Assembly (NCBI RefSeq): GCF_004151485.1
Contig: NZ_SBFF01000001.1
Location: 62,001-126,000, forward strand
Reading direction: 5' to 3'
Source: Sphingosinicella sp. CPCC 101087
GTDB taxonomy: Bacteria; Pseudomonadota; Alphaproteobacteria; Sphingomonadales; Sphingomonadaceae
DNA: 64,000 bases
Under the pieces are notes generated by a model that was not told the origin of the DNA, did not search any database, and saw only the letters and a program-made list of their open reading frames with translations. Below are positions 30,097 through 44,494 of this stretch, piece after piece (within the stretch, counting starts at the first letter, position 1; every line of letters begins with the position of its first letter). A program made the position numbers and the translations under genes.

Positions 30097-30353
30097 TTGC
30101 TCCTTGTGCCACTCTTGTCTATATGCCGGCGCGTCCAACGGGCGGTGACGCGCGTGGAAAGCCGAATCGGCATAGCGCGTAAGGGGCGGCGGCGCCGCCT
30201 CTTGACGCGCCTTTTTGCTTGAAGCCGGCCTCCAGGCGCCGCCTCGCGGACGCCGCACCGGTGCGAGGCCGTTGCGGCAACATCACTCTGGCCCGGCCCG
30301 CGCGCTTTCATGAAGATCACGCGGTGCGGACCGGTATTATGAAGGTATTGCAC
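30097..30353 (+). promoter_or_regulatory. Putative rpsA promoter and structured leader
   Basis: A TTGCTC/TATATG pair with a 17-bp spacer (30097-30102 and 30120-30125) could start transcription near 30132, leaving a leader of about 220 nt before rpsA. The leader contains inverted repeats, ACGCGC (30148-30153) with GCGCGT (30175-30180), and GGCGGC with GCCGCC around 30185-30199. S1 autoregulation through its leader is known in other bacteria; here it is only suggested. Confidence 0.35.
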
Positions 30354-32057
<1,704 letters not shown>

Positions 32058-32103: not shown

Positions 32104-32273
32104 CAAGCCAATCTCTAGCGCCTTTGAATTGCACGGATTTTCGATCGCCAGCGATATTGCATTTTGCACATTTCGGTGCGACTGTCCGCCTCGGCCGCTT
32201 CGGTTGCATGGGGACGCTGCGATTCCGACGGGGCCCCACGACAGAGGATTTTCGCTTTGAACAGGGGGGAGCC

Positions 32274-32552
32274 GTGATTCGGTCCGAACTCGTCCAGAAG
32301 CTTTGTGATGACCATCCCGATCTGACGCTCAAAGAGGTCGAGCGGGTCGTGTCTGCATTCTTCGATTCGATCATAGAGCAGCTGCAGAATGAAGGACGCG
32401 TCGAGCTTCGCGGCTTCGGCGCCTTCTCGACCCGCGGCCGCGACGCCCGCAAGGGCCGCAATCCACGCACCGGGGAGCCGGTCGACGTCTCCGCCAAGCG
32501 CGTGCCCTATTTCAAGCCGGGCAAAGAAATGCGCGAGCGCCTGAACGTCTGA
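32274..32552 (+). CDS. ihfB: Integration host factor subunit beta
   Basis: Predicted 92-residue DNA-bending protein. The GTG start at 32274 follows AGGGGGGAG and gives the family start (M)IRSELVQKL. The HU/IHF signature [22 protein letters not shown] is complete in two halves, with the intercalating proline in RNPRTG and the C-terminal [14 protein letters not shown]. It pairs with IhfA, not in this window, to bend DNA in recombination and promoters. Its position after rpsA is the usual one. Confidence 0.94.
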
Positions 32553-32917: not shown

Positions 32918-33233
32918 GCGGACGTGGCGAAATGGTAGACGCTGCAGACTTCAATTGGAGTGCCCGGCCGGAAACGACCGGAGTAGAACCGCTCAAAGTC
33001 GGGGAACGCTAACAGGCTCGCGCCTCAGGCCAATCCCGAGCCAAGCCCCTCCCCTCCCGGGAAGCGGAAGGTGTAGAGACTGGACGGGCGGCGCCTAAGG
33101 CCGAAAGGCTAAGGCGAAGGGACAGTCCGGACCACGAACGCCCGGGCACTGCCGGGCGGCGGCGAAAGCCGAAGTGGGGTGAAAATCTGCTACCCGACAG
33201 GGTGTGCGGGTTCGAGTCCCGCCGTCCGCACCA
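32918..33233 (+). tRNA. tRNA-Leu (anticodon UAA) interrupted by a group I intron
   Basis: The 5' exon (32918-32951, 34 nt) carries the acceptor strand GCGGACG, a D arm and the anticodon stem strand GCAGA with loop bases CTT. The 3' exon (33182-33233, 52 nt) carries AAAA, TCTGC, a class-II variable arm (ACCC/GGGT), the T arm GCGGGTTCGAGTCCCGC, CGTCCGC, A and encoded CCA. Joining them gives a normal 86-nt tRNA-Leu with loop CTTAAAA, so the anticodon is UAA. The break falls directly after U34. Both exon halves pair perfectly in the acceptor and anticodon stems, so the gene looks functional once spliced. Confidence 0.93.
32952..33181 (+). ncRNA. Group I self-splicing intron in tRNA-Leu(UAA)
   Basis: The intron is 230 nt and has no open reading frame. 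Exon bases ACUU can pair with GAGU at about 32958-32961, giving P1 with the required U-G wobble at the 5' splice site. GGCCAATCCCGAGCCAAG at 33028-33045 resembles the conserved P3-P4 block of trnL(UAA) introns (GGCAATCCTGAGCCAA). P7 is seen as GACTG (33078-33082) with CAGTC (33123-33127), enclosing a P8-like hairpin with a GAAA loop. The intron ends in G (33181), the usual omega-G. Splicing needs only a guanosine cofactor in this class. Boundaries follow from the exon pairing. Confidence 0.9.
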
Positions 33234-33519
33234 AGACTCACGTCGAACGGTCAGCCAAAGCCGGTTCAGGACGGCGTTGCATCCAGGCCGGCGGGCGAGG
33301 CCCCGGGCCGGCGCGCACGAAGGTCGTCCGAGCCGACCCTCAACGGACCGCCCCTTGCGCAAGTGGCCCTCCATCACCATCTCGGTTGCATCGAGTTTCG
33401 GCCGAACGACATGGCCTCGCCGCTCAACAGCGTGCCTGACTAGCTACTTCTCTCCAGATCTCGACTTCACCGCCGCGCCACGGGCGCGGCTCGACGCACG
33501 CATGTTGAAAGGAATTCCC

Positions 33520-33729
33520 ATGACCATAGGCACCGTAAAATGGTTCGACAGCCAGAAGGGCTTCGGCTTCATCCAGCCTGAAGACGACAGCAAGGACGTC
33601 TTCGTTCACATCAGCGCGGTAGAACGCGCAGGCATGACCGGCCTGAATGAGGGCCAGAAGCTCTCCTTCGAAATCGTAGCGGACGGCCGCAGTGGCAAGT
33701 CCGCCGCGGAGGAGCTCAGCGCAGCCTAA
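33520..33729 (+). CDS. Cold-shock protein, CspA family
   Basis: Predicted 69-residue single cold-shock domain. Both RNA-binding motifs are present: KGFGFIQ (RNP1, residues 15-21) and VFVHIS (RNP2, residues 30-35). AAAGGAA sits about 6 bases before the ATG. These proteins bind single-stranded RNA and DNA as chaperones; several paralogues per genome are usual, so cold induction is not certain. The 286-bp gap upstream, after trnL, may hold a long 5' leader as in other csp genes. A strong hairpin follows at 33789. Confidence 0.93.
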
Positions 33730-33788
33730 GCGGCGCCAAGCCCCTTGATCGGCCTGACCACGGATGTACTGGCAGGGCGATGACTTCG

Positions 33789-33822
33789 GCCCCGTGCCTG
33801 GCTCGCCAGGTGCGGGGCTTTT
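33789..33822 (+). terminator. Rho-independent terminator after the cold-shock gene
   Basis: GCCCCG-TG-CCTGG pairs with CCAGG-TG-CGGGGC around a CTCG loop, followed by TTTT. It lies 60 bp after the csp stop and ends only 17 bp before the desaturase ATG, so readthrough would decide coexpression of the two genes. Confidence 0.85.
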
Positions 33823-33838
33823 ACAGACCTGGATATCC

Positions 33839-35005
33839 ATGACTCCCGAACCGAATATCGCTTCACGCGGCGATCATGAGGACATCCTCTACCCGTCCGC
33901 CATCCCTTTCCTGCTGGTCCATCTCGGCTGCCTGGCTGCCTTCTGGACCGGGATCAGCTGGCCGGCGGTCGCCCTCTGCGTGACGCTTTACTGGCTCAGG
34001 ATGTTCGCGGTCACTGCGGGCTATCACCGCTTTTTCTCGCACCGATCGTTCGCGACGGGGCGCCTGTTCCAGTTCATCCTGGCCCTTCTCGCCCAGAGCA
34101 CGGCGCAGAAAAGCGTCTTGTGGTGGGCAGCCAAGCATCGGCACCACCACCTTCACTCCGATACGCCGCGCGACGTCCATTCGCCGCGGCATACCGGCTT
34201 TCTCTACAGCCATGTCGGATGGATCTTCTCGCGGCGGCATGACACCGCCGATCTCGGCCAGGTTCCCGATCTCGCGCGCTATCCCGAGCTTCGCTGGCTG
34301 CACAAGTTCGAGATCGCGCCCGCTCTCCTCCTCGCCGGCCTCTGCTTCCTGATCGCAGGATGGTCCGGCCTGGTGGTCGGGTTCCTGTGGAGCACGGTGC
34401 TCGTCTACCACGCCACCTTCTGCATCAACTCGCTCGCCCACGTGCGCGGCCGCAAGCGCTATGTGACCGGCGACGATTCCCGCAACAATCTGCTGCTGGC
34501 GCTGATGACCATGGGCGAAGGCTGGCACAACAATCATCACGCTTATCCGAGCAGCGTCCGCCAGGGCTTCCGCTGGTGGGAGATTGACGTCACCTGGTAC
34601 GTCCTGAAGATGCTCGCCGGACTCGGAATCGTGTGGGACCTGAAATCGCCGCCCCGACGCGTGCTGCGCAACGAGCATCGACTCGGCACGCGCACCATCC
34701 AGCGAACGGCCGAGCAACTCGCCATGCGCTTCGACCCCGAGCGCATCGCCCAGTCGATCGCCTCGACGCTTCACCCGCCCGAGCTGTCCGCGCTGCGGCA
34801 CGCGCTCGCCCATGCCCGCGATCGCGCCGGCGAGACGCTGGCCGGCCTGCATGCGCCGCACGTGCCCAGCCGCGCCGAACTCACGGCCCAGGCGAAGGCG
34901 ATGTTCGCGAGGACCCCATCGCTCGACGATATCGTCGAGCGCGGCCACGAGCTGCTCCTGGCGGCGATCGGCAGCCACCTCATGGCTTCGCCCGTCAAGG
35001 CCTGA
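33839..35005 (+). CDS. Membrane fatty-acid (acyl-CoA) delta-9-type desaturase
   Basis: Predicted 388-residue integral membrane di-iron desaturase. The three histidine boxes are complete: HRFFSH at 63-68, HRHHH at 100-104 and HNNHH at 230-234. Four hydrophobic segments are spaced as expected. The C-terminal ~100 residues form a hydrophilic extension rich in Ala, Arg and Glu, longer than in minimal desaturases. It should introduce a cis double bond into a saturated acyl chain and so adjust membrane fluidity. The ATG lies 17 bp after a strong terminator, with only a weak ribosome site. Confidence 0.92.
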   Translation: MTPEPNIASRGDHEDILYPSAIPFLLVHLGCLAAFWTGISWPAVALCVTLYWLRMFAVTAGYHRFFSHRSFATGRLFQFILALLAQSTAQKSVLWWAAKHRHHHLHSDTPRDVHSPRHTGFLYSHVGWIFSRRHDTADLGQVPDLARYPELRWLHKFEIAPALLLAGLCFLIAGWSGLVVGFLWSTVLVYHATFCINSLAHVRGRKRYVTGDDSRNNLLLALMTMGEGWHNNHHAYPSSVRQGFRWWEIDVTWYVLKMLAGLGIVWDLKSPPRRVLRNEHRLGTRTIQRTAEQLAMRFDPERIAQSIASTLHPPELSALRHALAHARDRAGETLAGLHAPHVPSRAELTAQAKAMFARTPSLDDIVERGHELLLAAIGSHLMASPVKA

Positions 35006-35052
35006 GGGTTCAACTCCGCCGCGACGCGCGTCATGGCGCGAACGGAGATGCC

Positions 35053-35670
35053 TTAGCGGCCGCCCTCCCGGTCCATGCCCTCGATCAGCGCGCGGGCCAT
35101 TGCGGATAGGAGTCTGGCCGGCTTTTCCTCTTCCTGAAACTGCCCGCTGACGAAGGCGCCGTTGATCACGAGCGCGAGCTGTGCGGCAAGCGCGTCGGGA
35201 CGGGCCGCGCCCATCCTTTCCAAAATCCTCTTCACGCGTTGCCGCAGCTCGGCCTTGTGGGCGGCCGCAACGGCGCGAGCAGGATGGCGGCGATCCGAAA
35301 ATTCGGCCGCGACGTTCAGCTGCGGGCAGCCGCGATAGTTCGGCCGTCGGATCCGTTCTTCGATCCATTCGAGATGAGCCTCGAGCTCGGCAGCGGGATC
35401 GCCTTGGTGAGCGGCCGCCACGCTGTCCCAGTGGCGCCAGAAGTCCTCGTCCTCGCGCCTCAGGAATGCCTCGACCAGATCGTCCTTGGAGGCGAAGTAA
35501 CGATAGAGGCTGGTCTTGGCGACGCCGGCCCGCGCCACGATCAGATCGACTCCGACCGCCCGGACGCCTTCACGGTAAAATAGGTTCGCCGCCGTCTCGA
35601 GAATATGGTCCCGAAGCTCGGCGCCTTTTGCGGGCCGGCCAGGAGCATCGGGACCTGATGTCTTTGTCAT
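35053..35670 (-). CDS. TetR-family regulator (operator ACAGAC-N2-GTCTGT)
   Basis: Predicted 205-residue repressor. The N-terminal helix-turn-helix covers roughly residues 19-65 (LRDHILETAANLFYREGVRAVGVDLIV, then AGVAKTSLYRYFASKDDLVEAFL). The C-terminal ligand domain has GCPQLNVAAEF, a motif with a cysteine seen in TetR_C proteins that react with electrophiles. An ACAGACAAGTCTGT palindrome lies 31 bp upstream of its start, and two more lie before the saccharopine-dehydrogenase-like gene at 36623-37666. Autorepression plus repression of that gene is inferred. Confidence 0.88.
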   Translation of the reverse strand: MTKTSGPDAPGRPAKGAELRDHILETAANLFYREGVRAVGVDLIVARAGVAKTSLYRYFASKDDLVEAFLRREDEDFWRHWDSVAAAHQGDPAAELEAHLEWIEERIRRPNYRGCPQLNVAAEFSDRRHPARAVAAAHKAELRQRVKRILERMGAARPDALAAQLALVINGAFVSGQFQEEEKPARLLSAMARALIEGMDREGGR

Positions 35671-35700
35671 CGAGCCCCCGAGTTATGGTGCGCACCTGAT

Positions 35701-35714
35701 ACAGACAAGTCTGT
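35701..35714. promoter_or_regulatory. TetR operator, autoregulatory site
   Basis: ACAGAC-AA-GTCTGT is a perfect 6-bp inverted repeat, 31 bp before the tetR-like start. The same half-sites occur twice at 37683-37719. Confidence 0.65.
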
Positions 35715-35877
35715 TGCTGCTCGTCCAGAATTTTCAACGCCGATCACGAAGCTCCTGGACGGGTGCGCCGGCGGTAGCCGCGTTCAGGATCATGCCGGAG
35801 CCGGCGACGACGCCAACGTCTCCGCCACCCGGGAAAATCTCGTTCCGGACGCCGCATCGGAAGAGAGGTGCCGGACT

Positions 35878-36417
35878 TTATCTGGATGGGGCGGCCACCA
35901 TGGAGGCGGAGGGGTCCGCCTGTCGTTCGAACAGCAGATCGTTCGCGTCGGCCGCTTCCGCCCGCGAGCGTCGCCGAAAGCCCTGCCTCTCGAGGAGCGC
36001 GATCGAGGCCTTGTTGTCCGGATGCACGGTGGCCCTGAGCGGATCGATGCCGCGTTCGGTCGCGAAATCGACCAGAGCGGCGAGAAGCTCGCGCCCGAGC
36101 CCCCGGTTCCAGAACGGTCGGGCCAAGCCGTAAATGAGCTCTTCGCCGCCTTCGTCCGGGCGGGCCATCCCGGCCCAACCTATCAGCCTGCCCGAAGGCC
36201 GTTCCACCACGGCGCCGGTCCCGTAGCCGTGGAGCCGGAGATTGCGCCGCGAATTGCGGACCCAGAGCGCCGCATCGGCGCGGCTGAGCGCACGTCCGTC
36301 GTCGACATAGCGGCGCACGTCGGGATCGGCGAACAGGTCCACGAGAGCGTCCACGTCCTCATCCTCGAACGGGCGGACGAAGAGCCTCGCCGTCTCGAGC
36401 TGCGCATCCTGTATCAT
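35878..36417 (-). CDS. GNAT-family N-acetyltransferase (RimJ/RimL-like)
   Basis: Predicted 179-residue acetyltransferase. LETARLFVRPFEDEDVDALVDLFADPDVRRYV is the usual RimJ-like opening. The acetyl-CoA loop is in FWNRGLGRELLAALVDFATERG, and ATVHPDNKASIALLERQGF is the conserved late segment. The start at 36417 follows GGGAGG by a few bases; an upstream extension lacks family sequence. It should move an acetyl group onto a protein N-terminus or a small amine. It is flanked by non-coding gaps of about 205 bp and is not obviously in an operon. Confidence 0.87.
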   Translation of the reverse strand: MIQDAQLETARLFVRPFEDEDVDALVDLFADPDVRRYVDDGRALSRADAALWVRNSRRNLRLHGYGTGAVVERPSGRLIGWAGMARPDEGGEELIYGLARPFWNRGLGRELLAALVDFATERGIDPLRATVHPDNKASIALLERQGFRRRSRAEAADANDLLFERQADPSASMVAAPSR

Positions 36418-36622
36418 GTGGTCCTCCCATCCGGCGCAGCGGCCCGATCCGCCGGCTGCGGCGCGGGAGAAGGCCGCGGCGACGCCGGCCACGAGCCCCC
36501 CGATGCTCCCAATCGATGCCGGTGGCCGAAGTCGCTCCCGGACTGTTCCTATGGTCGGCCTGCGGATTGCAGCGCAAGTCGTGACGCGCCGCTTGTCCCA
36601 CGCGGACATTCGAGTGGAGCCC

Positions 36623-37666
36623 TCAGGCGGCGGCGAGATCCAGCGTCAGGAGATCCGGAGCCAGCGCCTCGAGAAAGGCCCGCGCTTCGAAGGCGGCGCC
36701 CGGCGCAAGTGCGCCCGACGCCTTCGACTCGCCGCGGAGGATGCGCTCGACGGCTTCGCAGACCAAGGGCGCCGAGAAGGCGTAGATATCCTGGCCCGAC
36801 GCGGCGAGGCGCCGCTCCCGGCCCGAGCGGCGGACAATCGCCTCGACGAGGAAGCGCTGCGCCGAACGGCCGGTTTCGTCGGCTGGCTCCGGAGGCGGCG
36901 TGGCGGGATCGCGGACGTCGCGAAGGGCGGTACCATTGAGATAGGTGTGAAGCTCGGCGGTCCGAACGTGCTGCGAGATCAGGACGATCTCCGAGAAGGG
37001 AAGTTCGATCATCCCCTGCCGATGGAATGGTGGCGGGAATTCCCAGTCCATCTCGGCGGGAGGCGAAGGCAGCGGTTCGAGCCGGCCATCGGCAACGACC
37101 AGGCGCCGCGCCGTGTTTCGCTCGCCGGTGATTCGCGTTCCCTTCGTGGGGTGCCAGCTGTCCAGCGCGATGCCGATCCGGATCTCGTCGGCACCCTCCC
37201 ATTCGTCGAGGGCCGCCGTCACAAGCAGGTCGGCTAATCCGCCGTAGAAGCCCATCGCCGGCATCACGACCAGACCGGCGTCCCGCGCAGGTGCGTCAAA
37301 CCGCTCGAAGATCGCGCGGGCGCTCGGCTGCTCCGCCGTGACGTCCAGATAATGCGCCCCGGCGCGAAGCGCCGCGGCGGCCACCGCGTCGGCCGTCTCC
37401 AGGAAGGGCCCGGCGCAATTCACCACCGCTGCGACGCCTGCGAAGGCGCGGTCGAGCGAGGCCGGATCGTCGAGCGAAGCTTCGTGGATCGCCATTCCCC
37501 GCCGGGCAAAGCCGAGCCCCTCAAGCTTCGCTGAACTCCGCCCGACCGCGACCGGCGTCAGCCCGCGCCGCTCCAGCTCCGACACCAGGAAGCGGCCGGT
37601 ATGTCCGTTGGCGCCGAAGATGGCGACTCGCCCTTGCTCGGACGACTTGCGGGTCAGAAGATCCAC
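36623..37666 (-). CDS. Saccharopine dehydrogenase-like NAD(P)-binding protein
   Basis: Predicted 347-residue protein of the saccharopine-dehydrogenase NADP-binding (trans-acting enoyl reductase-like) group. The Rossmann motif IFGANGHTGRFLVSELERRG lies near residues 14-33. VVNCAGPFLETADAVAAAALRAGAHYLDVTAEQ, read in parts, is the family hallmark at 80-115. A GTG start at 37666 is chosen because AAGGAG lies 7-8 bases upstream. Two ACAGAC-N2-GTCTGT operators lie 17-53 bp before it, so it is the main target of the TetR at 35053-35670. The substrate is unknown. Confidence 0.82.
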   Translation of the reverse strand: MDLLTRKSSEQGRVAIFGANGHTGRFLVSELERRGLTPVAVGRSSAKLEGLGFARRGMAIHEASLDDPASLDRAFAGVAAVVNCAGPFLETADAVAAAALRAGAHYLDVTAEQPSARAIFERFDAPARDAGLVVMPAMGFYGGLADLLVTAALDEWEGADEIRIGIALDSWHPTKGTRITGERNTARRLVVADGRLEPLPSPPAEMDWEFPPPFHRQGMIELPFSEIVLISQHVRTAELHTYLNGTALRDVRDPATPPPEPADETGRSAQRFLVEAIVRRSGRERRLAASGQDIYAFSAPLVCEAVERILRGESKASGALAPGAAFEARAFLEALAPDLLTLDLAAA

Positions 37667-37682
37667 CTCATTCTCCTTCGAT

Positions 37683-37719
37683 ACAGACCTGTCTGTTCTG
37701 TAGATACAGACAGGTCTGT
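37683..37719. promoter_or_regulatory. Double TetR operator
   Basis: ACAGAC-CT-GTCTGT (37683-37696) and ACAGAC-AG-GTCTGT (37706-37719) are 23 bp apart centre to centre, about two helical turns. They lie just upstream of the GTG start at 37666 and match the single site at 35701-35714. Confidence 0.7.
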
Positions 37720-37834
37720 ATCGCGTCAACAGGAGCGATTGCGCGAGGAGCCAGAAAAGGACCGCGCACAACGTGGACTTCGGCTCGGCCCGGCCGCTCA
37801 CGCTCGCGAGCGCTTCAGCACCCTTTCGCGTCGG

Positions 37835-39049
37835 CTATGCGCCGATCTGCGCGCAACGGGCCGCCTGAGCGGGAGCATCGCGGCGGGCGCCGGCCAGCCG
37901 GGCCGTAACGAGAGCGAGCCCGCCAGCGACGAGCGCCAAGCCGGCAGTGGCCCAGCCGGTGGAGCCAAGCCCCCATCGATGCACCACCATCCCCCCGGCC
38001 AACGCGCCGAGCGCGATTCCGAGATTGGCGGAGGCAATGTTCATGGCCATGGCAAAGGCCGGCGCCCGGCCTCCAGCCAGAGTCACCCGGACCTGGCAGA
38101 GCGCCACACCCGCCGTGTGAGCGGCTCCCCAGGGCACCAGAAGCGCAAGAACCACGCCCGGCCCTGCCCCGCTTCGAGTGGCGGCGAGAACCGAAGCGGC
38201 AAGCAGTGCGAGGCAGGCGACCGTCGCGCCGAGCGGAGCGCGGTCCGCGATTCGAGCCACATAGGCGTTGCCGATGAGCCCGACGCCGCCGAACGCCGTC
38301 AAAGCGAGGGCGAGCGAGAGACCTTCGAGCCCGGCGAGCGCCCCAAGCAGGGCAGCGATATAGGTGTAGGCGGCAAACATGGCGGCGAAGACCGCGACGG
38401 AGAGCAGGAGGTGGCTGACGAACAGGGGCCGCGCGAGGAGGCCGAGCTGCTCCCGGATCGATGGTGCCGACGACCGGCCGACCGCAGGGAAACCGACGAC
38501 GACCAATCCCGCCGTCGCCAAAGCAAGCAGGGCCAGCACGGCGAAAGCGGGAGCCCATGCGCCGCTGCCGACCAGCGCGACTCCGGCCGGCATCGCCAGG
38601 ACGAGGCCGATGGCGAAGCCGAGATTGGCGAGCGCGAGCGCGCGGCCGCTTCGCCCGGGCGGCGCGAGCGCCGTCACGACCCTGGCTCCTGCACCGAGGA
38701 ATACGGGGAGGGCAGCGCCCTGAACGATGCGTATCGCGATCAGCACCATGAAGTCGGGAACGAGGATCGAGGCGATATTGCCGGCGGCAAACAGGAGCAG
38801 GGTCCCGGCCAGGAGCCGGCGCGGCGGCTGACCGGCGAGCGCAAGCATGCACAGCGGACCGGCCACTGCCGCCGATAAAGCGAAGGCGCCGACCAGATGC
38901 GCGGTCTCCGCAAGCTCCAAGCCGAGGTCGCGAGAGAGGATCGGGAGCAAGCCGACGACGATGAACTCCGTCGCGACGATGACCGCGCCTCCGATTGCCA
39001 GGAGCCACAATGCGCGGCCCAGCGCGGCTGCGCGGGCCGCCTCGGTCAT
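37835..39049 (-). CDS. MFS drug/arabinose efflux-type transporter (DHA1)
   Basis: Predicted 404-residue, 12-helix transporter of the AraJ/CmlA-like efflux group. VATEFIVVGLLPILSRDLGLE is typical of the first helix, and IRIVQGAALPVFLGAGARVV covers the motif C-like fourth to fifth helices. Its start overlaps the SDR stop by 4 bp, so the two form one transcript. That transcript is controlled from the divergent TetR at 39898. Likely role is export of a small toxic compound; substrate unknown. Confidence 0.87.
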   Translation of the reverse strand: MTEAARAAALGRALWLLAIGGAVIVATEFIVVGLLPILSRDLGLELAETAHLVGAFALSAAVAGPLCMLALAGQPPRRLLAGTLLLFAAGNIASILVPDFMVLIAIRIVQGAALPVFLGAGARVVTALAPPGRSGRALALANLGFAIGLVLAMPAGVALVGSGAWAPAFAVLALLALATAGLVVVGFPAVGRSSAPSIREQLGLLARPLFVSHLLLSVAVFAAMFAAYTYIAALLGALAGLEGLSLALALTAFGGVGLIGNAYVARIADRAPLGATVACLALLAASVLAATRSGAGPGVVLALLVPWGAAHTAGVALCQVRVTLAGGRAPAFAMAMNIASANLGIALGALAGGMVVHRWGLGSTGWATAGLALVAGGLALVTARLAGARRDAPAQAARCAQIGA

Positions 39050-39795
39050 GCGTTGGCTCCTCCGTCGATCGTCAAGCCGGCGCCGTTGATCGAGCGCCCT
39101 TCCGGCCCGACGACGAACGCCACCAGTGCGGCGATGTCGTCGGCGCTTCCGTAGCGCGGGATCGCCATGCGGGCGCGCTGCGCCTCGGCGCCCGGGCCCT
39201 CGGCGGGGTTCATGTCCGTGTCGGTCGAGCCCGGATGGACGAGATTGACGGTAATGCCCCGCGGACCGAGATCGCGTGCCAGTCCCTTCGTCCAGCCGAT
39301 CAGCGCCGCCTTGCTCAGCGCGTAGAGGCTTACGTCCGGCTCGGTGACGCGTTCGGCCAGGTTGCTGCCGATCGAGACGATCCGCCCCCCTTCGCCCATG
39401 TGCGCAGCCGCGGCCTGGCTGGCAATCACGACCGCCCTGACGTTGACCGCCAAAGTGGCATCGATGTCCTCGAGGCTGAGCTCGGCAAGCGGCCCGCCGC
39501 GGAAGATGCCGGCATTGTTGACCAGAATGTCGAGCCCGCCAAACGCCCCCGCCGCATCGTTCACCGCACGGCGTATGGCCGCAGGATCGCCGGCGTCCGA
39601 CTGGAGGACGAGCGCGCGCCGGCCGGCCGCCTCGATGTCCCTCCCGACCGCCTCGCCGCGGTCGGCGGACCGCTCGTAGGTGATGGCGACGTCGGCGCCG
39701 TCACGCGCGAGCCGGCGCGCTATCGCGGCGCCGATTCCGCGGCTGGCGCCGGTGACGAGCGCACGTTTTCCGAGCAGAGGAAGGCGGTCGGTCAT
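39046..39795 (-). CDS. Short-chain dehydrogenase/reductase
   Basis: Predicted 249-residue classical SDR. The cofactor motif TGASRGIG is at 15-22, NNAG at 93-96, a catalytic serine is in SIGSN near 141, and Y158/K162 are in YALSK. The C-terminus ends NGAGLTIDGGANA, as is typical. Specific activity cannot be set; FabG-like quinone or ketone reductases are closest. It is coupled to an efflux-type MFS gene and is divergent from a TetR gene with shared operators. Confidence 0.9.
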   Translation of the reverse strand: MTDRLPLLGKRALVTGASRGIGAAIARRLARDGADVAITYERSADRGEAVGRDIEAAGRRALVLQSDAGDPAAIRRAVNDAAGAFGGLDILVNNAGIFRGGPLAELSLEDIDATLAVNVRAVVIASQAAAAHMGEGGRIVSIGSNLAERVTEPDVSLYALSKAALIGWTKGLARDLGPRGITVNLVHPGSTDTDMNPAEGPGAEAQRARMAIPRYGSADDIAALVAFVVGPEGRSINGAGLTIDGGANA

Positions 39796-39812
39796 CGTGG
39801 AAGATCCTTTTC

Positions 39813-39884
39813 TGTAGTGATCGATACAGATCACGTGCCAAGGTTGCCCCGGCCCGTCAAGTGAATTATGTATCAACCGATACA
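39813..39884. promoter_or_regulatory. Two TetR operators in the SDR/tetR divergent promoter
   Basis: A perfect TGTATC-AACC-GATACA repeat lies at 39869-39884, and an imperfect copy, TGTAGT-GATC-GATACA, lies at 39813-39828, 17 bp before the SDR start. This places one site at each promoter of the divergent pair. Confidence 0.62.
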
Positions 39885-39897
39885 GATTGGATGGCAG

Positions 39898-40521
39898 ATG
39901 GCGGAACGCGGGCGACGACGCAGCTTCGACAAGGACGTGGCGCTGGCCCGCGCGATGGAGCTGTTCTGGGACAAGGGCTATGAAGGGGCGTCGATCAGCG
40001 ATCTGACCCAGGCGATGGGGATCGCTCCGCCGAGCCTCTATGCCGCCTTCGGCAGCAAGGAGGCGCTGTTCCGCGAGGCGCTCAATCTCTACGGCACAAC
40101 CGAAGGCGTCGAGATCTGGGCCGCGGTCCACGCCGCCCCCACGGCTTACGAGGCCGTCGCGGGATTTCTTCTGGAGACGGCGCGCGTCTTCACCCGGCCG
40201 GGCAAGCCGCCGGGCTGCCTCGTCGTCCTTTCGGCGCTTCACGCCACCGAAAGCTGCGAGACGGTGCGCAGCGAGCTCGTGCGACTGCGTCGGGAAGCGA
40301 TCGACGACATGGCCAATCGCCTCCGCGACGGCATCAGCGCGGGAGAGCTCCCGCAAGACAGTGACGTCCAGGCTCTGGCGAGCTTCTACGTGACGGTGCA
40401 GCAGGGCATGTCCATCCAGGCGCGCGACGGGGCTTCGGAAGCCGAGCTGCGCGCGATCGCGCACGCCGCTCTCGCGGCCTGGCCGGGGCGCCGCGACGAG
40501 CGATCGGGGCCCGATCGGTAG
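39898..40521 (+). CDS. TetR-family regulator (operator TGTATC-N4-GATACA)
   Basis: Predicted 207-residue regulator. The N-terminus GRRRSFDKDVALARAMELFWDKGYEGASISDLTQAMG (in parts) and PPSLYAAFGSKEALFREAL is typical of the TetR subgroup often divergent from SDR or glyoxalase genes. The ATG at 39898 is preferred because an earlier ATG at 39868 sits against the operator. The C-terminal domain has GCLVVLSALHA, with a conserved GCL cysteine. It probably represses the SDR-MFS operon and itself. Confidence 0.88.
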   Translation: MAERGRRRSFDKDVALARAMELFWDKGYEGASISDLTQAMGIAPPSLYAAFGSKEALFREALNLYGTTEGVEIWAAVHAAPTAYEAVAGFLLETARVFTRPGKPPGCLVVLSALHATESCETVRSELVRLRREAIDDMANRLRDGISAGELPQDSDVQALASFYVTVQQGMSIQARDGASEAELRAIAHAALAAWPGRRDERSGPDR

Positions 40522-40568
40522 AAGCTCGGCCGCCGGTGACTCGGCGGCGCGCGGCCGAGGAACCCCGG

Positions 40569-41189
40569 CTAATCCTGCGTGTCGCCCGAGAGCGGCGTTG
40601 CGCGCATCGAAGGCCGGGCGGCGAAGCGATCGAGCCAGCCGCTCAGCCGCGGCCGGCCGTCTCGGAAGTCCGGCAGATCGCGAAACGCAATCCAGCTCAG
40701 GGCCGTGGCCACGGCGACATGGCCGACATGAAGCGGCGCCTCGGGATCCAGCTCGCGCTCCAGCCAATCGTAGCTCGCCACGAGCTTCTCGGCATAACCG
40801 TCGCCAAGCGGCGGGTAGCGAAGCGGCTCGGGGCGACGGACGGTCTCCCACCGGAGCGCGATTCCGGCCTCGCACACACCCTGGGCCACTGCCTGCATGG
40901 TCAAGGCCTGCCATCGCCGCGCGCCCGTCTCCGGGATCAGCTTCCTTCCCTCGTTCAGGCTGTCGAAAAAGGCGCAGATCACATCCGAATCGAAGATCGG
41001 AGCCTGTCCGGGGCGCACCAGCACCGGCACCTTCCCCAGCGGATTGTGGGCGAAGACGGCCTCGTTGCGGTTGGTCGGGCTGGTCTCCTGGTGGACCACC
41101 TCGAGCCTGTCGGCGAGGCCCACCTCGTGGGCGAAGACCAAGGCCTTTCGGGCATAAGGGGAGTGGGTCTGGTAGAGAAGCTTCATCAT
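40569..41189 (-). CDS. Glutathione S-transferase family protein
   Basis: Predicted 206-residue GST. The N-terminal thioredoxin-like domain starts MMKLLYQTHSPYARKALVFAHE, with S10 in the usual catalytic serine position of the bacterial 'SPYxRK' group. NPLGKVPVL carries the cis-proline and FDSDVICAFFD contacts glutathione. The C-terminal helical domain follows to ATPLSGD. It lies 5 bp from the M20 peptidase gene upstream and is likely cotranscribed. The substrate is unknown. Confidence 0.88.
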   Translation of the reverse strand: MMKLLYQTHSPYARKALVFAHEVGLADRLEVVHQETSPTNRNEAVFAHNPLGKVPVLVRPGQAPIFDSDVICAFFDSLNEGRKLIPETGARRWQALTMQAVAQGVCEAGIALRWETVRRPEPLRYPPLGDGYAEKLVASYDWLERELDPEAPLHVGHVAVATALSWIAFRDLPDFRDGRPRLSGWLDRFAARPSMRATPLSGDTQD

Positions 41190-41194
41190 GGGTC

Positions 41195-42601
41195 TCACTG
41201 GCTGTCGTGAAGGAGGTGCGCGAGCGCGGAGACGAGCCGCCGTGCGGTCGGGAGGTGAAGGAATTCGTTGGGTCCGTGAGCGTTGGACTGCGGGCCAAGC
41301 ACGCCGGTGACGACGAACTGGGTCGCTGGATAGAGCGAGCCCAACATGGACAGGAACGGGATTCCCCCGCCTCCGCCCATGAAGGCGCAGGACCGGCCGA
41401 ATGCTCCGATCGAGGCGGCCTCCAGGCTCGTCCGGAGCCATTGAGCGAGCGGCGGCGCGTGCCAGCCGGGGGAGACGAGCTCGGCGCGAAATTCGACCCG
41501 TGCCCCATAGGGAGGTTGTGCCTCGAGCAGCGCCTTCACTTTCTCCGCCGCCGCTTGCGCGTCCAGCGTCGGCGGAAGCCTGAGACTCACCTTGAGGGCA
41601 AGCCACGGGTGCATGACGGCCGCGGCATCGGCGATCGACGGCAGGCCGTCCATTCCGGTGATCGCGAGTTGGGGCCGCCAGGCGCGGTTGAGCGCGAGCT
41701 CCGCAGCATCGTCGGCGACCGGCCGAACGCCGTCCAGGAACGGCAACGGCCTGTAGAGCATGGACCCGAGCAGGAGGCCGGCGCCACGCGCCTGCTCGCG
41801 CCGCTCGGCCGGGATCTCGACCTGAAGGTCCGCGAGGCGGACTTCACCCGTGCCCGGGTCCTCCAGCCGCGAAAGCAGGGTCCTGGCGATCCGGAACGGC
41901 GATGCGACCAGGCCGGAGGCGTCGCCCGAATGGACGCCTTCGGCGAGCACTTCCACCGTCAGTGTGCCGGCCACCTGGCCGCGCAGCGAGGTCGTCGACC
42001 AGAGCCGCTCGTAATCCCCACATCCGGCGTCGAGCGCAACAACGAGGCCAGGATTTCCGATTCGCTCCTCGAGCTGGTCTATATAGTGGGGAAGATCGCC
42101 GCTGCCGGACTCCTCGCAGGCCTCGATGAGGATACGGCAGGGCGGATGCGCCAGGCCTTGCTCGCGCAAGGCCAGGAGCGCGAGGATCGCGCCGAACAAG
42201 GCATAACCGTCATCGGCGCCTCCGCGGCCGTAGAGCCTCTCACCCTCGATCACGGGCGCCCAGGCGCTTCGCCCAGGGGCCCAGCCGTCCAGCGCCGGCT
42301 GCTTGTCCAGATGACCGTAGATCAGCACCGGCGCGCGGGCGTCGCCGGGCACGTCGATGAAAAGGACCGGCGTACGGCCGGGAAGCCGCACGACCTCGAC
42401 GCGCGCCTCCGGTACCCGGGCGAGACGGCTTCGCGCCCAGCCGGCCATGAGGTCCACGGCACGCTGGATATGACCGCTGGTCTCCCAGCCCGGATCGAAG
42501 GCCGGGGACTCGCAGGGTATCGCCATATAGGCCAGGAGCGCCGGCATGACCTCGGCGTCCCAGGACCGGCTTACGAAGGCCTTCAGCTTTTCGACGTCCA
42601 T
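41195..42601 (-). CDS. M20-family metallopeptidase (dipeptidase/carnosinase-like)
   Basis: Predicted 468-residue cytosolic zinc peptidase. Metal ligands are visible as H97 (YGHLDKQP), D130 (GRGGADDG) and E163/E164 (EACEESGS). A late histidine lies in SNAHGPNEF. The dimerisation or lid domain lies between about residues 210 and 400. The start at 42601 follows GGTGGGAAC. This subgroup cleaves dipeptides or N-acyl amino acids. The gene is divergent from an Lrp-type regulator, and an amino-acid PLP enzyme lies just beyond, which suggests an amino-acid or dipeptide catabolic unit. Confidence 0.88.
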   Translation of the reverse strand: MDVEKLKAFVSRSWDAEVMPALLAYMAIPCESPAFDPGWETSGHIQRAVDLMAGWARSRLARVPEARVEVVRLPGRTPVLFIDVPGDARAPVLIYGHLDKQPALDGWAPGRSAWAPVIEGERLYGRGGADDGYALFGAILALLALREQGLAHPPCRILIEACEESGSGDLPHYIDQLEERIGNPGLVVALDAGCGDYERLWSTTSLRGQVAGTLTVEVLAEGVHSGDASGLVASPFRIARTLLSRLEDPGTGEVRLADLQVEIPAERREQARGAGLLLGSMLYRPLPFLDGVRPVADDAAELALNRAWRPQLAITGMDGLPSIADAAAVMHPWLALKVSLRLPPTLDAQAAAEKVKALLEAQPPYGARVEFRAELVSPGWHAPPLAQWLRTSLEAASIGAFGRSCAFMGGGGGIPFLSMLGSLYPATQFVVTGVLGPQSNAHGPNEFLHLPTARRLVSALAHLLHDSQ

Positions 42602-42720
42602 GTTCCCACCTCGACTTGACGAGGCGCAGACTAGACGCGCAAGCGTACGTTCCTTCTGCAAGCTTTGCGGGTTTTGCGCCGAAATTCCGCGATTGCACGG
42701 CCCATCACGAGGATCTTCGC

Positions 42721-43200
42721 ATGCAACTCGACCGCTTCGACCGCGAGCTGCTCAATCTGGTGCAGGACGATGCCGGGCAGACCGCGGAGCGCCTGGCGCA
42801 AGACGTGAACCTTTCTCCCTCTGCGATCCAGAGACGGCTGAAGCGCCTGCGGGAAGAAGGCGTGATCCAGCGCCAGTGCGCCGTGCTGGACCCGCGCAAG
42901 GTCGGCCGGCCGACCTTCTTCGTCGTCTCTCTCCAGGTGGAGCGCGAACGACCCGAGCTGCTGATCGAGCTTCGCCGATGGCTGTCGCGCGAGCCCCATG
43001 TGCAGCAGGCCTTCTACGTGACGGGAGAGGCCGATTTCGTCATCATCGTGACCGTCCCGGACACCGAAGCCTATGACGCGCTGATGTCGCGCCTGGTCAG
43101 CGACAATCCGAACGTGAAGAGGTTCACGACCAATGTCGCGCTGGGGGTGGTGAAGCGCGGTCTGTCGATACCCTTGCCGGTGGAGGACGACCGAGGCTAG
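42721..43200 (+). CDS. Lrp/AsnC-family transcriptional regulator
   Basis: Predicted 159-residue regulator. The N-terminal helix-turn-helix is LDRFDRELLNLVQDDAGQTAERLAQDVNLSPSAIQRRLKRLREEGVI, read in parts, and RAM-domain features (GEADFVIIV, DTEAYDALMSRLV) fill the C-terminal half. It is divergent from the M20 peptidase with 119 bp between and precedes the PLP enzyme by about 166 bp. Control of both in response to an amino acid is inferred. Confidence 0.9.
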   Translation: MQLDRFDRELLNLVQDDAGQTAERLAQDVNLSPSAIQRRLKRLREEGVIQRQCAVLDPRKVGRPTFFVVSLQVERERPELLIELRRWLSREPHVQQAFYVTGEADFVIIVTVPDTEAYDALMSRLVSDNPNVKRFTTNVALGVVKRGLSIPLPVEDDRG

Positions 43201-43366
43201 CCGCTCACGAAAGGCGGACCCGGTGCCGAGATGGCCGGCCAGCGGCAGTCCCGCACGCCGACCGGGACATTGGGCGCCTCGTGGAACGGCTTTTCACCGC
43301 GGCAGGGGACTCCACCGCGCAATCCCCGCAACCGCTCGGCATAATTTGCGGCCCGGCGGCGGGACG

Positions 43367-44347
43367 ATGATGCAGAATGGGCGCATGGACGAATTGAACG
43401 AACTCGAATTCGCCGCGAGCCCGCTCCTCGACCTGCCGCGGCTGGCGCGGCAAGCCCAGGTCGAGCGCGTCTTCGTCAAGGATGAGGGCACGCGCCCACT
43501 CGGCAACTTCAAGGTGCTCGGCGGGATGCTGGCGGGGCTAAGGGCGCTCGCCCGGGCGGGCGGCGATCGTTCGGTCTTGATCTGCGCGAGCGACGGAAAT
43601 CACGGGCTCGCCGTGGCGGCCGCGGCACAGCGTGCCGGCGCCAACGCCCGCATCTATCTTCCGCGACACGCCTCGGTGCAGCGCGCGACCCGTATCGAAG
43701 CCATAGGCGGCGAGGTCGTCTGGATCGAAGGCAGCTACGACGATGCGGTGGACATGGCGGCGGCCGCGGCGGAGGCCGGCGAAGGGCTCCTGGTGCCGGA
43801 CACGACCAGCCGGGCCTACGAACCGGCGGTCGCGGAGGTGATGGAGGGCTATGGCCGGATCTGCATGGAGCTGTCGGACCAGCTTCCCCTGCCGCCGACC
43901 CACCTCTTCGTCCAGGCCGGCGTCGGCGGGCTGGCGGCAGCCATGGCGGAGGGCCTGCGCGGACAAATGGCCGCACCGGGCAAAATCATCGTCGTCGAGC
44001 CGGAGAACGCCGCCTGTGTGGCCGCGGGCCTCGCCACGGGCAAGCCCGTCCGTATCGGCGGAGACCTCCTCAGCTGCGCGGAGATGCTGTCCTGCGGCCT
44101 TGCCTCGGCGCCCGCGCTGGAGATCCTGCTGCGCCACGCCGTCGATTCGATCTGTGTGGGAGAACCGGCGCTTCAAAGTGCGGTCGGCACCTTGCTGGCG
44201 GGTGGAGGCCCCCTCACCTCCCCTTCGGGCGCAGCCGGCCTCGCGGGGCTCGCCATGGTCGCGCATAGCCCCCGGCTGCGTAACGCGTTCGAGCTGGCGA
44301 ACGATAGCCGTGTGCTCATCGTCGCGACGGAAGGCGCGCCGGCCTGA
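43367..44347 (+). CDS. Fold-type-II PLP enzyme, diaminopropionate ammonia-lyase/threonine dehydratase-like
   Basis: Predicted 326-residue cytosolic enzyme. The PLP lysine is K49 in LGNFKVLGG, preceded by VKDEGTR, an arrangement typical of diaminopropionate ammonia-lyase. SDGNHG (75-80) and a VGGLAAAMAEG phosphate-binding glycine loop near 190-200 complete the site. At ~326 residues it is shorter than DpaL (~400), so the substrate may differ. Tandem ATGs at 43367 and 43370, and another at 43385, leave the start uncertain. It should eliminate ammonia from an amino acid; the adjacent Lrp and M20 genes support amino-acid catabolism. Confidence 0.82.
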   Translation: MMQNGRMDELNELEFAASPLLDLPRLARQAQVERVFVKDEGTRPLGNFKVLGGMLAGLRALARAGGDRSVLICASDGNHGLAVAAAAQRAGANARIYLPRHASVQRATRIEAIGGEVVWIEGSYDDAVDMAAAAAEAGEGLLVPDTTSRAYEPAVAEVMEGYGRICMELSDQLPLPPTHLFVQAGVGGLAAAMAEGLRGQMAAPGKIIVVEPENAACVAAGLATGKPVRIGGDLLSCAEMLSCGLASAPALEILLRHAVDSICVGEPALQSAVGTLLAGGGPLTSPSGAAGLAGLAMVAHSPRLRNAFELANDSRVLIVATEGAPA

Positions 44348-44494
44348 AGCCGTTCGGCAGGAGGGCGCGGCCAAAGCCGGCGGCGCGAGGCTGCTCCAGG
44401 AGCGCGAGCTGGTCGCCCGACCCCGGCGACCTAGAGCGGAACAAGGAGCGAACGGCCCTGCGGCTTCTCCAGCGAAGCCGTGGCAAAGCGCCGC

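Follow-up and report, generated by a model that had tools for sequence, protein, structure and literature searches.

A predicted self-splicing group I intron in the only detected tRNA-Leu(UAA) gene of a Sphingosinicella genome, and its likely arrival on a host-gene-splitting integrative element

The window, a 64,000-nucleotide stretch of contig NZ_SBFF01000001.1 from Sphingosinicella sp. CPCC 101087, contains a tRNA-Leu(UAA) gene interrupted by a group I intron, for which self-splicing is predicted. This is the only tRNA-Leu(UAA) gene detected in the genome, and the intron is likely to have arrived inside a replacement tRNA gene on an integrative element, of a kind that appears to split the host gene. 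For the window intron itself, we infer both the splicing and the arrival by this route. Although small group I introns of tRNA genes, this one included, lack an endonuclease gene, their patchy distribution among bacteria looks like that of sequences moving laterally; a replacement tRNA on an integrative element would offer them a concrete vehicle that is visible in DNA. Among the papers listed in the literature searches, which covered mostly work outside subscription journals, we found none that links group I introns with tRNA-replacing elements.

When the two exons of the window gene were joined, ARAGORN returned a complete 86-nt class II tRNA-Leu(taa) cloverleaf with an encoded CCA. The insertion lies between U34 and A35, which we take to be the insertion site of the cyanobacterial trnL(UAA) introns. 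An earlier note, made from the sequence alone, had placed a 230-nt insert directly after U34 and had joined the halves to an 86-nt tRNA-Leu with CCA; its exon and intron bounds were borne out, and the cloverleaf agrees. Plain ARAGORN, with no introns allowed, did not call the window gene. With introns allowed it returned the same gene bounds, but put the splice site 2 bases early and named the tRNA Phe. This mode misnames many interrupted genes, and splice sites were re-derived by rule (U before, G at the end, P1, a 7-nt loop and likeness to the tRNAs of the window genome). In practical terms, the plain tRNA finder used here overlooks such an interrupted gene.

Table 1 Coordinates of the interrupted gene, its predicted intron helices and the two genes upstream (window numbering).
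Feature	Coordinates	Strand	Remark
rpsA-like gene	30219-32057	+	S1 domains; upstream of trnL
HU/IHF-family gene	32124-32552	+	upstream of trnL
tRNA-Leu(UAA) gene, interrupted, whole	32918-33233	+	exons and intron
5' exon	32918-32951	+	34 nt; ends at U34
P1	32948-32961	+	exon ACTT 32948-32951 / GAGT 32958-32961; U.G at 5' splice site
Group I intron	32952-33181	+	230 nt
P2	32964-32981	+	hairpin, GAAA loop; one C.A mismatch in window copy; 85.7% of cells paired
P3	32989-32994 / 33086-33091	+	4 of 6 pairs with both-side changes; all cells paired
P4	32999-33003 / 33035-33039	+	invariant
P5	33008-33009 / 33029-33030	+	one pair with both-side changes
P6	33040-33042 / 33070-33072	+	invariant
P6a	33046-33047 / 33066-33067	+	invariant
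P7	33078-33082 / 33123-33127	+	GACTG / CAGTC
P8	33092-33116	+	GAAA cap in window copy
P9	33139-33142 / 33155-33158	+	
Second P9-region hairpin	33160-33163 / 33168-33171	+	GAAA loop
Terminal G of intron	33181	+	
3' exon	33182-33233	+	52 nt; A35 to encoded CCA

On sequence grounds the insert is confirmed as a group I intron, with a predicted fold that is supported by covarying helices. It has the P3-P8 and P4-P6 domains with P7, which is presumably the guanosine-binding helix; the U at the exon end pairs with a G in P1, and the intron ends in G. The P1 U.G, the P3-P4 block, the P7 strands, the capped P8 and the terminal G had all been noticed earlier and were found as described. Covariation was assessed on 22 sequences (the window intron with 18 Leu and 3 Lys relatives), using a structure drawn by hand from P1 to P9 with the crossing of P3 and P7 included. 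Over 49 pairs, 96.8% of the 1078 cells pair, a share favoured by the structure having been built on the window's row; the 20 pairs in which both sides change carry more weight. None of 500 shuffled controls reached any of the five measures, and sliding the structure left 28-44% of cells paired. All cells are paired in P3, P4, P5, P6, P7 and P8. Both-side changes occur in P3, P5, P7 and P8, while P4 and P6 are invariant and hence uninformative. Four pairs of P3 are rebuilt in the tRNA-Lys copies, and one P7 pair switches among A-U, G-C and U-A. All 20 aligned rows with a splice site after U34 have the U.G of P1, the P1 aligned columns of the two Lys rows spliced after U35 being one off.

The Rfam group I model RF00028, a check proposed in the earlier note, supported the identification in part. 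The window insert was the sole match reported at E ≤ 10 in the 4.70-Mb genome (E 0.007, after a loose first look), but its 21.2 bits lie under the gathering score of 50, so that no match is obtained at that score, which is a score threshold and not a structural feature. The same cut-off was passed by 4 of 12 loci from relatives, with the window's own, the 13th tested, below it. Our own model R1, made from 22 sequences over 243 positions, scores the window intron at 200.9 bits. By its size and host tRNA, the intron is a candidate member of subgroup IC3. Its longest stop-free frame is at most 56 codons on either strand, and there is therefore no room for an endonuclease.

The window gene lies at its native place. 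Its rpsA-like and HU/IHF upstream neighbours are common to the window and the congeners G053, G186 and G129, all of which have the order cytidylate-kinase-like gene (judged by eye), rpsA, HU/IHF and trnL; in G053 and G186 trnL is uninterrupted. No tRNA half was found in the window or its genome, including any CTTAAAAT-type 3' half, and no integrase of the element family was found in this genome at the cut-offs used, so that neither fragment nor integrase lies beside the window copy. Downstream, about 11 kb (33234-44490) separate the window trnL from the next stretch shared with G186. This interval was considered as an element and rejected, as it showed no integrase and a displaced 3' half was not found. 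Five ORFs scanned within it are metabolic or regulatory (a desaturase, a saccharopine-dehydrogenase-like protein, an M20 peptidase, a PLP enzyme and an Lrp-like protein).

The proposed carrier is seen in the congener G129. There, a tRNA-Leu(UAA) of the native type is broken at CTTAAAA, with its halves 81 kb apart on the same strand of one contig. The rpsA and HU/IHF genes precede the 5' half, and what follows the 3' half matches the downstream sequence of the intact G053 gene. The interrupted copy begins 230 nt downstream of the 5'-half start, and a tyrosine integrase (Pfam, 74 bits) is found next to the 3' half. Between the halves are a type II/IV secretion ATPase and further ORFs judged by eye to be conjugation-like. 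The interrupted copy of G129 is a complete tRNA in its own right and no restored form of the native gene. When 12 genomes were searched by pattern, displaced 3' halves appeared in G129, G104, G215, G279, G350 and G370 and an intact gene in G053, with no displaced 3' half in the window's genome (G000), G012, G226, G071 or G139. In G129, G104, G215, G350 and G370, relatives of the window genome, the native tRNA is split with both fragments present; by eye, the 3' half fits the 5' half in the acceptor strand and the anticodon stem, with one G.U in G215. The halves of G104 are about 27 kb apart on one contig, and those of G215, G350 and G370 are on different contigs.

Native halves were sought up to 3.9 kb upstream of interrupted genes, with distances taken from start to start. 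In the family, 6 of 39 interrupted genes had a Leu(UAA) 5' half upstream (7 of 40 with G129, which lies outside that set), as did 13 of 47 interrupted named-genome genes among the matches listed. With three loci left out (L154 and L204, whose halves are doubtful, and L411, whose half breaks beyond the loop), this amounts to 17 of 87 loci, the named-genome part again being from the matches listed. The family set comprises the 39 readable loci of 40, L444 being out, and the two sets may overlap in genomes. By comparison, none of 20 uninterrupted tRNA-Leu(UAA) genes had an upstream half within 3.9 kb; one of them has another tRNA-like match 3.1 kb downstream. No scar was seen beside 33 of the 39 family loci (upstream sequence below 1.6 kb in 2 of them) or 34 of the 47 named-genome loci listed (below 1.6 kb in 9). 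Among scarless cases, the interrupted genes of G071 and G139 directly follow an IHF-like gene, as judged by eye.

At the 17 loci the native half is broken in the anticodon loop at CTTAAAA. Two layouts were observed. In the short layout (G129, L097, L151 and L205) the half is followed after 196-231 nt by the interrupted gene; L102 has the same layout with a degraded half and was not counted. In the long layout one tyrosine-integrase-like ORF of 387-468 codons lies between half and interrupted gene, as in all 13 intervals of 1.38-1.54 kb (L410, L411, L421, L423, L427, L431, L088, L104, L132, L174, L176, L184 and L196). The long-layout ORF is also present at L204, where the upstream tRNA looks whole, and at L131 the half is 2.2 kb away and the largest ORF of the interval is not integrase-like. 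Fourteen interval ORFs align with one another and have invariant Arg, His and Tyr positions of the kind found in tyrosine recombinases. Pfam was run on two of these ORFs: one gave two integrase SAM-like domains above the cut-off and the other a single such domain below it, with no match to the integrase catalytic-domain family in either.

Using proteins from two intron-bearing loci as queries, integrase searches returned 14 places in 13 of 199 genomes of the family (E ≤ 1e-60) and 15 places in 13 of 385 genomes of the class (E ≤ 1e-50). Six of these 29 places adjoin tRNA-Leu(UAA), and all six genes are interrupted by the intron (L446, L448, L515, L516, L518 and L523, with L446 and L448 known from the first set). 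The half is seen in five, and the contig of L523 ends inside the intron. Ten places (L445, L447, L449, L451, L452 and L454-L458) have a complete tRNA-Leu(CAA), uninterrupted in every case. In seven of them (L445, L447, L449, L451, L452, L454 and L455) a Leu(CAA) half is also seen, and the integrase ORF lies between the broken tRNA-Leu(CAA) 5' half and the complete tRNA-Leu(CAA). Sister elements at tRNA-Leu(CAA) bring uninterrupted replacements; replacement and broken gene differ at position 32 (C against T) in 7 of 7 readable cases. L453 has a Leu(CAA) 5' part only, and the remaining twelve places adjoin other tRNAs or none that was recognised. Relatives of the integrase family were also observed beside tRNA-Met(CAU) (L528, L520, L521 and L524-L526), that of L528 between two such genes. 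In G226 (L427), two tandem tRNA-Leu(UAA) 5' halves 234 nt apart are followed by an integrase-like ORF and the interrupted tRNA-Leu; this double half likely reflects two successive integrations.

Introns of this kind are common in the class, and the window intron adds to a known kind. The hint of rarity in the earlier note did not hold: R1 found introns scoring at least 148 bits in 48 of the 397 genomes searched in the window's family (its own included; 51 places, the next match having 34 bits), and 40 of 289 class genomes had matches at E ≤ 1e-10. Within the genus, the intron is present in 2 of the 11 searched genomes. A core-pattern scan of named genomes gave at least 119 core matches at no fewer than 118 loci. 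Among the 119 matches listed, a rule-based assignment placed 47 in tRNA-Leu(UAA) after U34 and 22 in tRNA-Arg(CCU); tRNA-Lys(UUU), Phe and Thr had 4 each, Met had 6, and a few other tRNAs had one each. A further 23 could not be classified, and the scores of 4 were too low. Among these matches, the Leu copies have hosts that include Caulobacter, Phenylobacterium, Rhodovulum, Mesorhizobium, Bradyrhizobium and Sphingobium, as well as Acidobacteria, one Bacteroidota and two gammaproteobacterial genomes. Members of this intron family also occupy the tRNA-Lys(UUU) of six genomes of the window's family, after U34 or U35 (L076, L077, L078, L380, L381 and L383). Three of these Lys cases, when joined, were called as tRNA-Lys(ttt) by ARAGORN, and G156 and G206 have both Leu and Lys copies. 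At L380 (the same locus as L090) there is an identical Lys 3' half of 48 nt in inverted orientation at a distance of 267 nt, which suggests that Lys copies too may ride elements.

The core motif was also observed further afield. At least 120 viral contigs carry it (L206-L325; at least 122 matches); among the viral matches listed, nine and a further three weak ones were assigned to a tRNA, and the remaining hosts are perhaps phage protein genes. In L122, L128, L162 and L163 (Parcubacteria, Patescibacteria or Harrisonbacteria) the motif lies in tRNA-Phe(GAA), with the intron after position 33.

The intron tree covers 112 of 130 rows, after 18 that were long or odd had been dropped (Phe, Met, Thr(GGU) and Asn copies among them), and its bootstrap was still unsettled. 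In this tree the window intron and the G129 intron are sisters (support 100/96; 86% identical). Both fall in an 18-row clade (97/93) together with the introns of G071 and G139 and 14 named-genome introns, which come from Rhodobacterales, Rhizobiales, Caulobacteraceae, one Acetobacteraceae, one Novosphingobium MAG and two unplaced genomes. Thirteen of these 14 are from outside Sphingomonadaceae or without family placement, and the other 34 family Leu introns (of 37 besides the window's) fall outside the clade. On transfer, which the earlier note had raised, the tree groups the window intron mostly with introns of other alphaproteobacterial families. A single clade for all 38 family Leu introns was rejected (p-AU 0.0024), the tested group having been named after an earlier tree. 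The Arg(CCU) introns form a clade of their own (99/99), as do the six family Lys introns (100/99), and host-tRNA change therefore looks rare.

These results bear on two other accounts of how the intron came to the window gene. It might be an old resident of trnL(UAA), inherited vertically and lost many times, with elements having taken up interrupted genes secondarily. An identical site in all Leu copies examined would fit this, as would the lack of a scar beside most interrupted genes, the window's too, and the placing of the window gene where congeners have trnL. We nevertheless regard it as quite unlikely, being strained by the tree: the family Leu introns do not form one clade, and the window intron groups largely with named-genome introns that are unplaced or not from Sphingomonadaceae. 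Its sparse presence in the genus and the uninterrupted trnL of G053 and G186 at the equivalent place also speak against long residence. The intron could instead have spread by reverse splicing into tRNA anticodon loops offering CUU, followed by reverse transcription and recombination, which we consider unlikely. The Lys(UUU) copies and those in other tRNAs after a U are in keeping with it, although the search itself required the U; however, the separate Lys and Arg(CCU) clades make jumps between tRNAs look rare, and split host genes would be left unexplained. Direct experimental evidence for reverse splicing is described as lacking in the portion of PMC3984707 available to us.

It might also be that the window gene is a dead insertion which yields a tRNA no longer. 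The earlier note had pointed to another intact tRNA-Leu(UAA) as what would reveal this; none was found in the window genome by a search with the joined tRNA or by a pattern search, which returned the two exons and other tRNAs, the next best match being another leucine tRNA. The genome has an intact tRNA-Leu(CAA), which an Rfam tRNA search of the genome overlooked; that search was not taken as proof of absence. The low Rfam score, the one mismatch in P2 and the rarity of UUA (4 in 3796 codons of ten ORFs) could be read as signs of decay. However, the core helices are intact and covarying, the exons give a complete tRNA, and the genome in which no other Leu(UAA) gene was found is rated 99.96% complete, which makes a dead insertion very improbable. 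With no intact tRNA-Leu(UAA) found, and UUA codons few but present, the cell likely depends on the predicted self-splicing of the intron.

Arrival on an element, the reading we prefer, would proceed as follows. The element would enter, and its integrase would recombine at the anticodon-loop core; the host tRNA-Leu(UAA) would be parted, and the element would supply a complete, intron-bearing replacement that could sustain UUA decoding once the intron is spliced. Group I splicing is a two-step transesterification started by guanosine. As the cell would live on the replacement tRNA, the intron would have to splice, and it would move between species while itself encoding nothing for mobility. At the window gene, which stands at the native place, the element may have been lost or may never have been present. 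The window route is drawn from the sister case G129, because the window gene stands without element remains. One guess is that recombination between the similar 5' exons could remove the short spacer, with the interrupted gene staying where it is. Against this carrier, the window itself shows no element and most interrupted genes are scarless; either elements decay fast or many copies therefore spread otherwise. As the Leu(CAA)-type elements are without an intron, it is not needed for such a way of life.

More tentatively, and with some doubt, the intron may act as a shield. It parts CTT from AAAA in DNA, so that the replacement would be without the attachment core and should escape the same integrase; split in DNA, the core would be rejoined only in RNA and could not be re-cut. 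Leu(CAA) elements would reach the same end through the changed base at position 32, and in G226 an unshielded replacement would have been hit by a second element with a shielded one. In favour of this are the core broken in DNA, the intron at each of the six UAA-type places and the altered core of seven CAA-type replacements; the double half of G226, which has the look of a second element having entered an uninterrupted replacement, is also suggestive. Against it, the intron is clearly not the sole way, and the majority of interrupted genes are scarless. A protective role has been proposed for archaeal disrupted tRNA genes by Randau and Soll, as cited in an extract of PMC4390854. Hiding the attachment site would be a testable reason for an anticodon-loop intron to pay.

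The cyanobacterial and plastid trnL(UAA) introns occupy the same host tRNA as the window intron in a different host group. They are small, lie within the anticodon, have no ORF and, by description, have a similar core. A group I intron in the tRNA-Leu(UAA) of a gammaproteobacterium, one isolate, was reportedly described by Vepritskiy et al. in 2002, and it would share both the tRNA and a proteobacterial host. The tRNA-Arg(CCU) introns of Agrobacterium and Bartonella are alike in class, size and core motif and form the nearest clade at another tRNA in a quick tree, but sit after position 36 of that tRNA. The introns of four other Bartonella genomes among the matches listed share the core pattern, in tRNA-Arg(CCU). 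No clear native half was found beside tRNA-Arg(CCU) introns at 23 loci; one locus of this set, L091, has two short 5' pieces. The Bartonella bacilliformis tRNA-Arg(CCU) intron splices in vivo and in vitro (PMC7717549, in the part accessible), and the introns of tmRNA are confined to four sites within a single loop (PMC11915505, likewise in part). The closest likeness to the relatives' elements on the integration side is provided by the Islander islands, which, as far as the available sections of PMC4383910 describe them, have a tyrosine integrase, a split tRNA gene, an end-marking fragment and known anticodon-loop sites. Genomic islands in tRNA genes usually restore their target from a fragment (the same sections of PMC4383910). 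In contrast to the Islander islands, whose fragment restores the host gene, the relatives' elements described here leave both host halves broken and bring a complete tRNA, which in the UAA type carries the intron.
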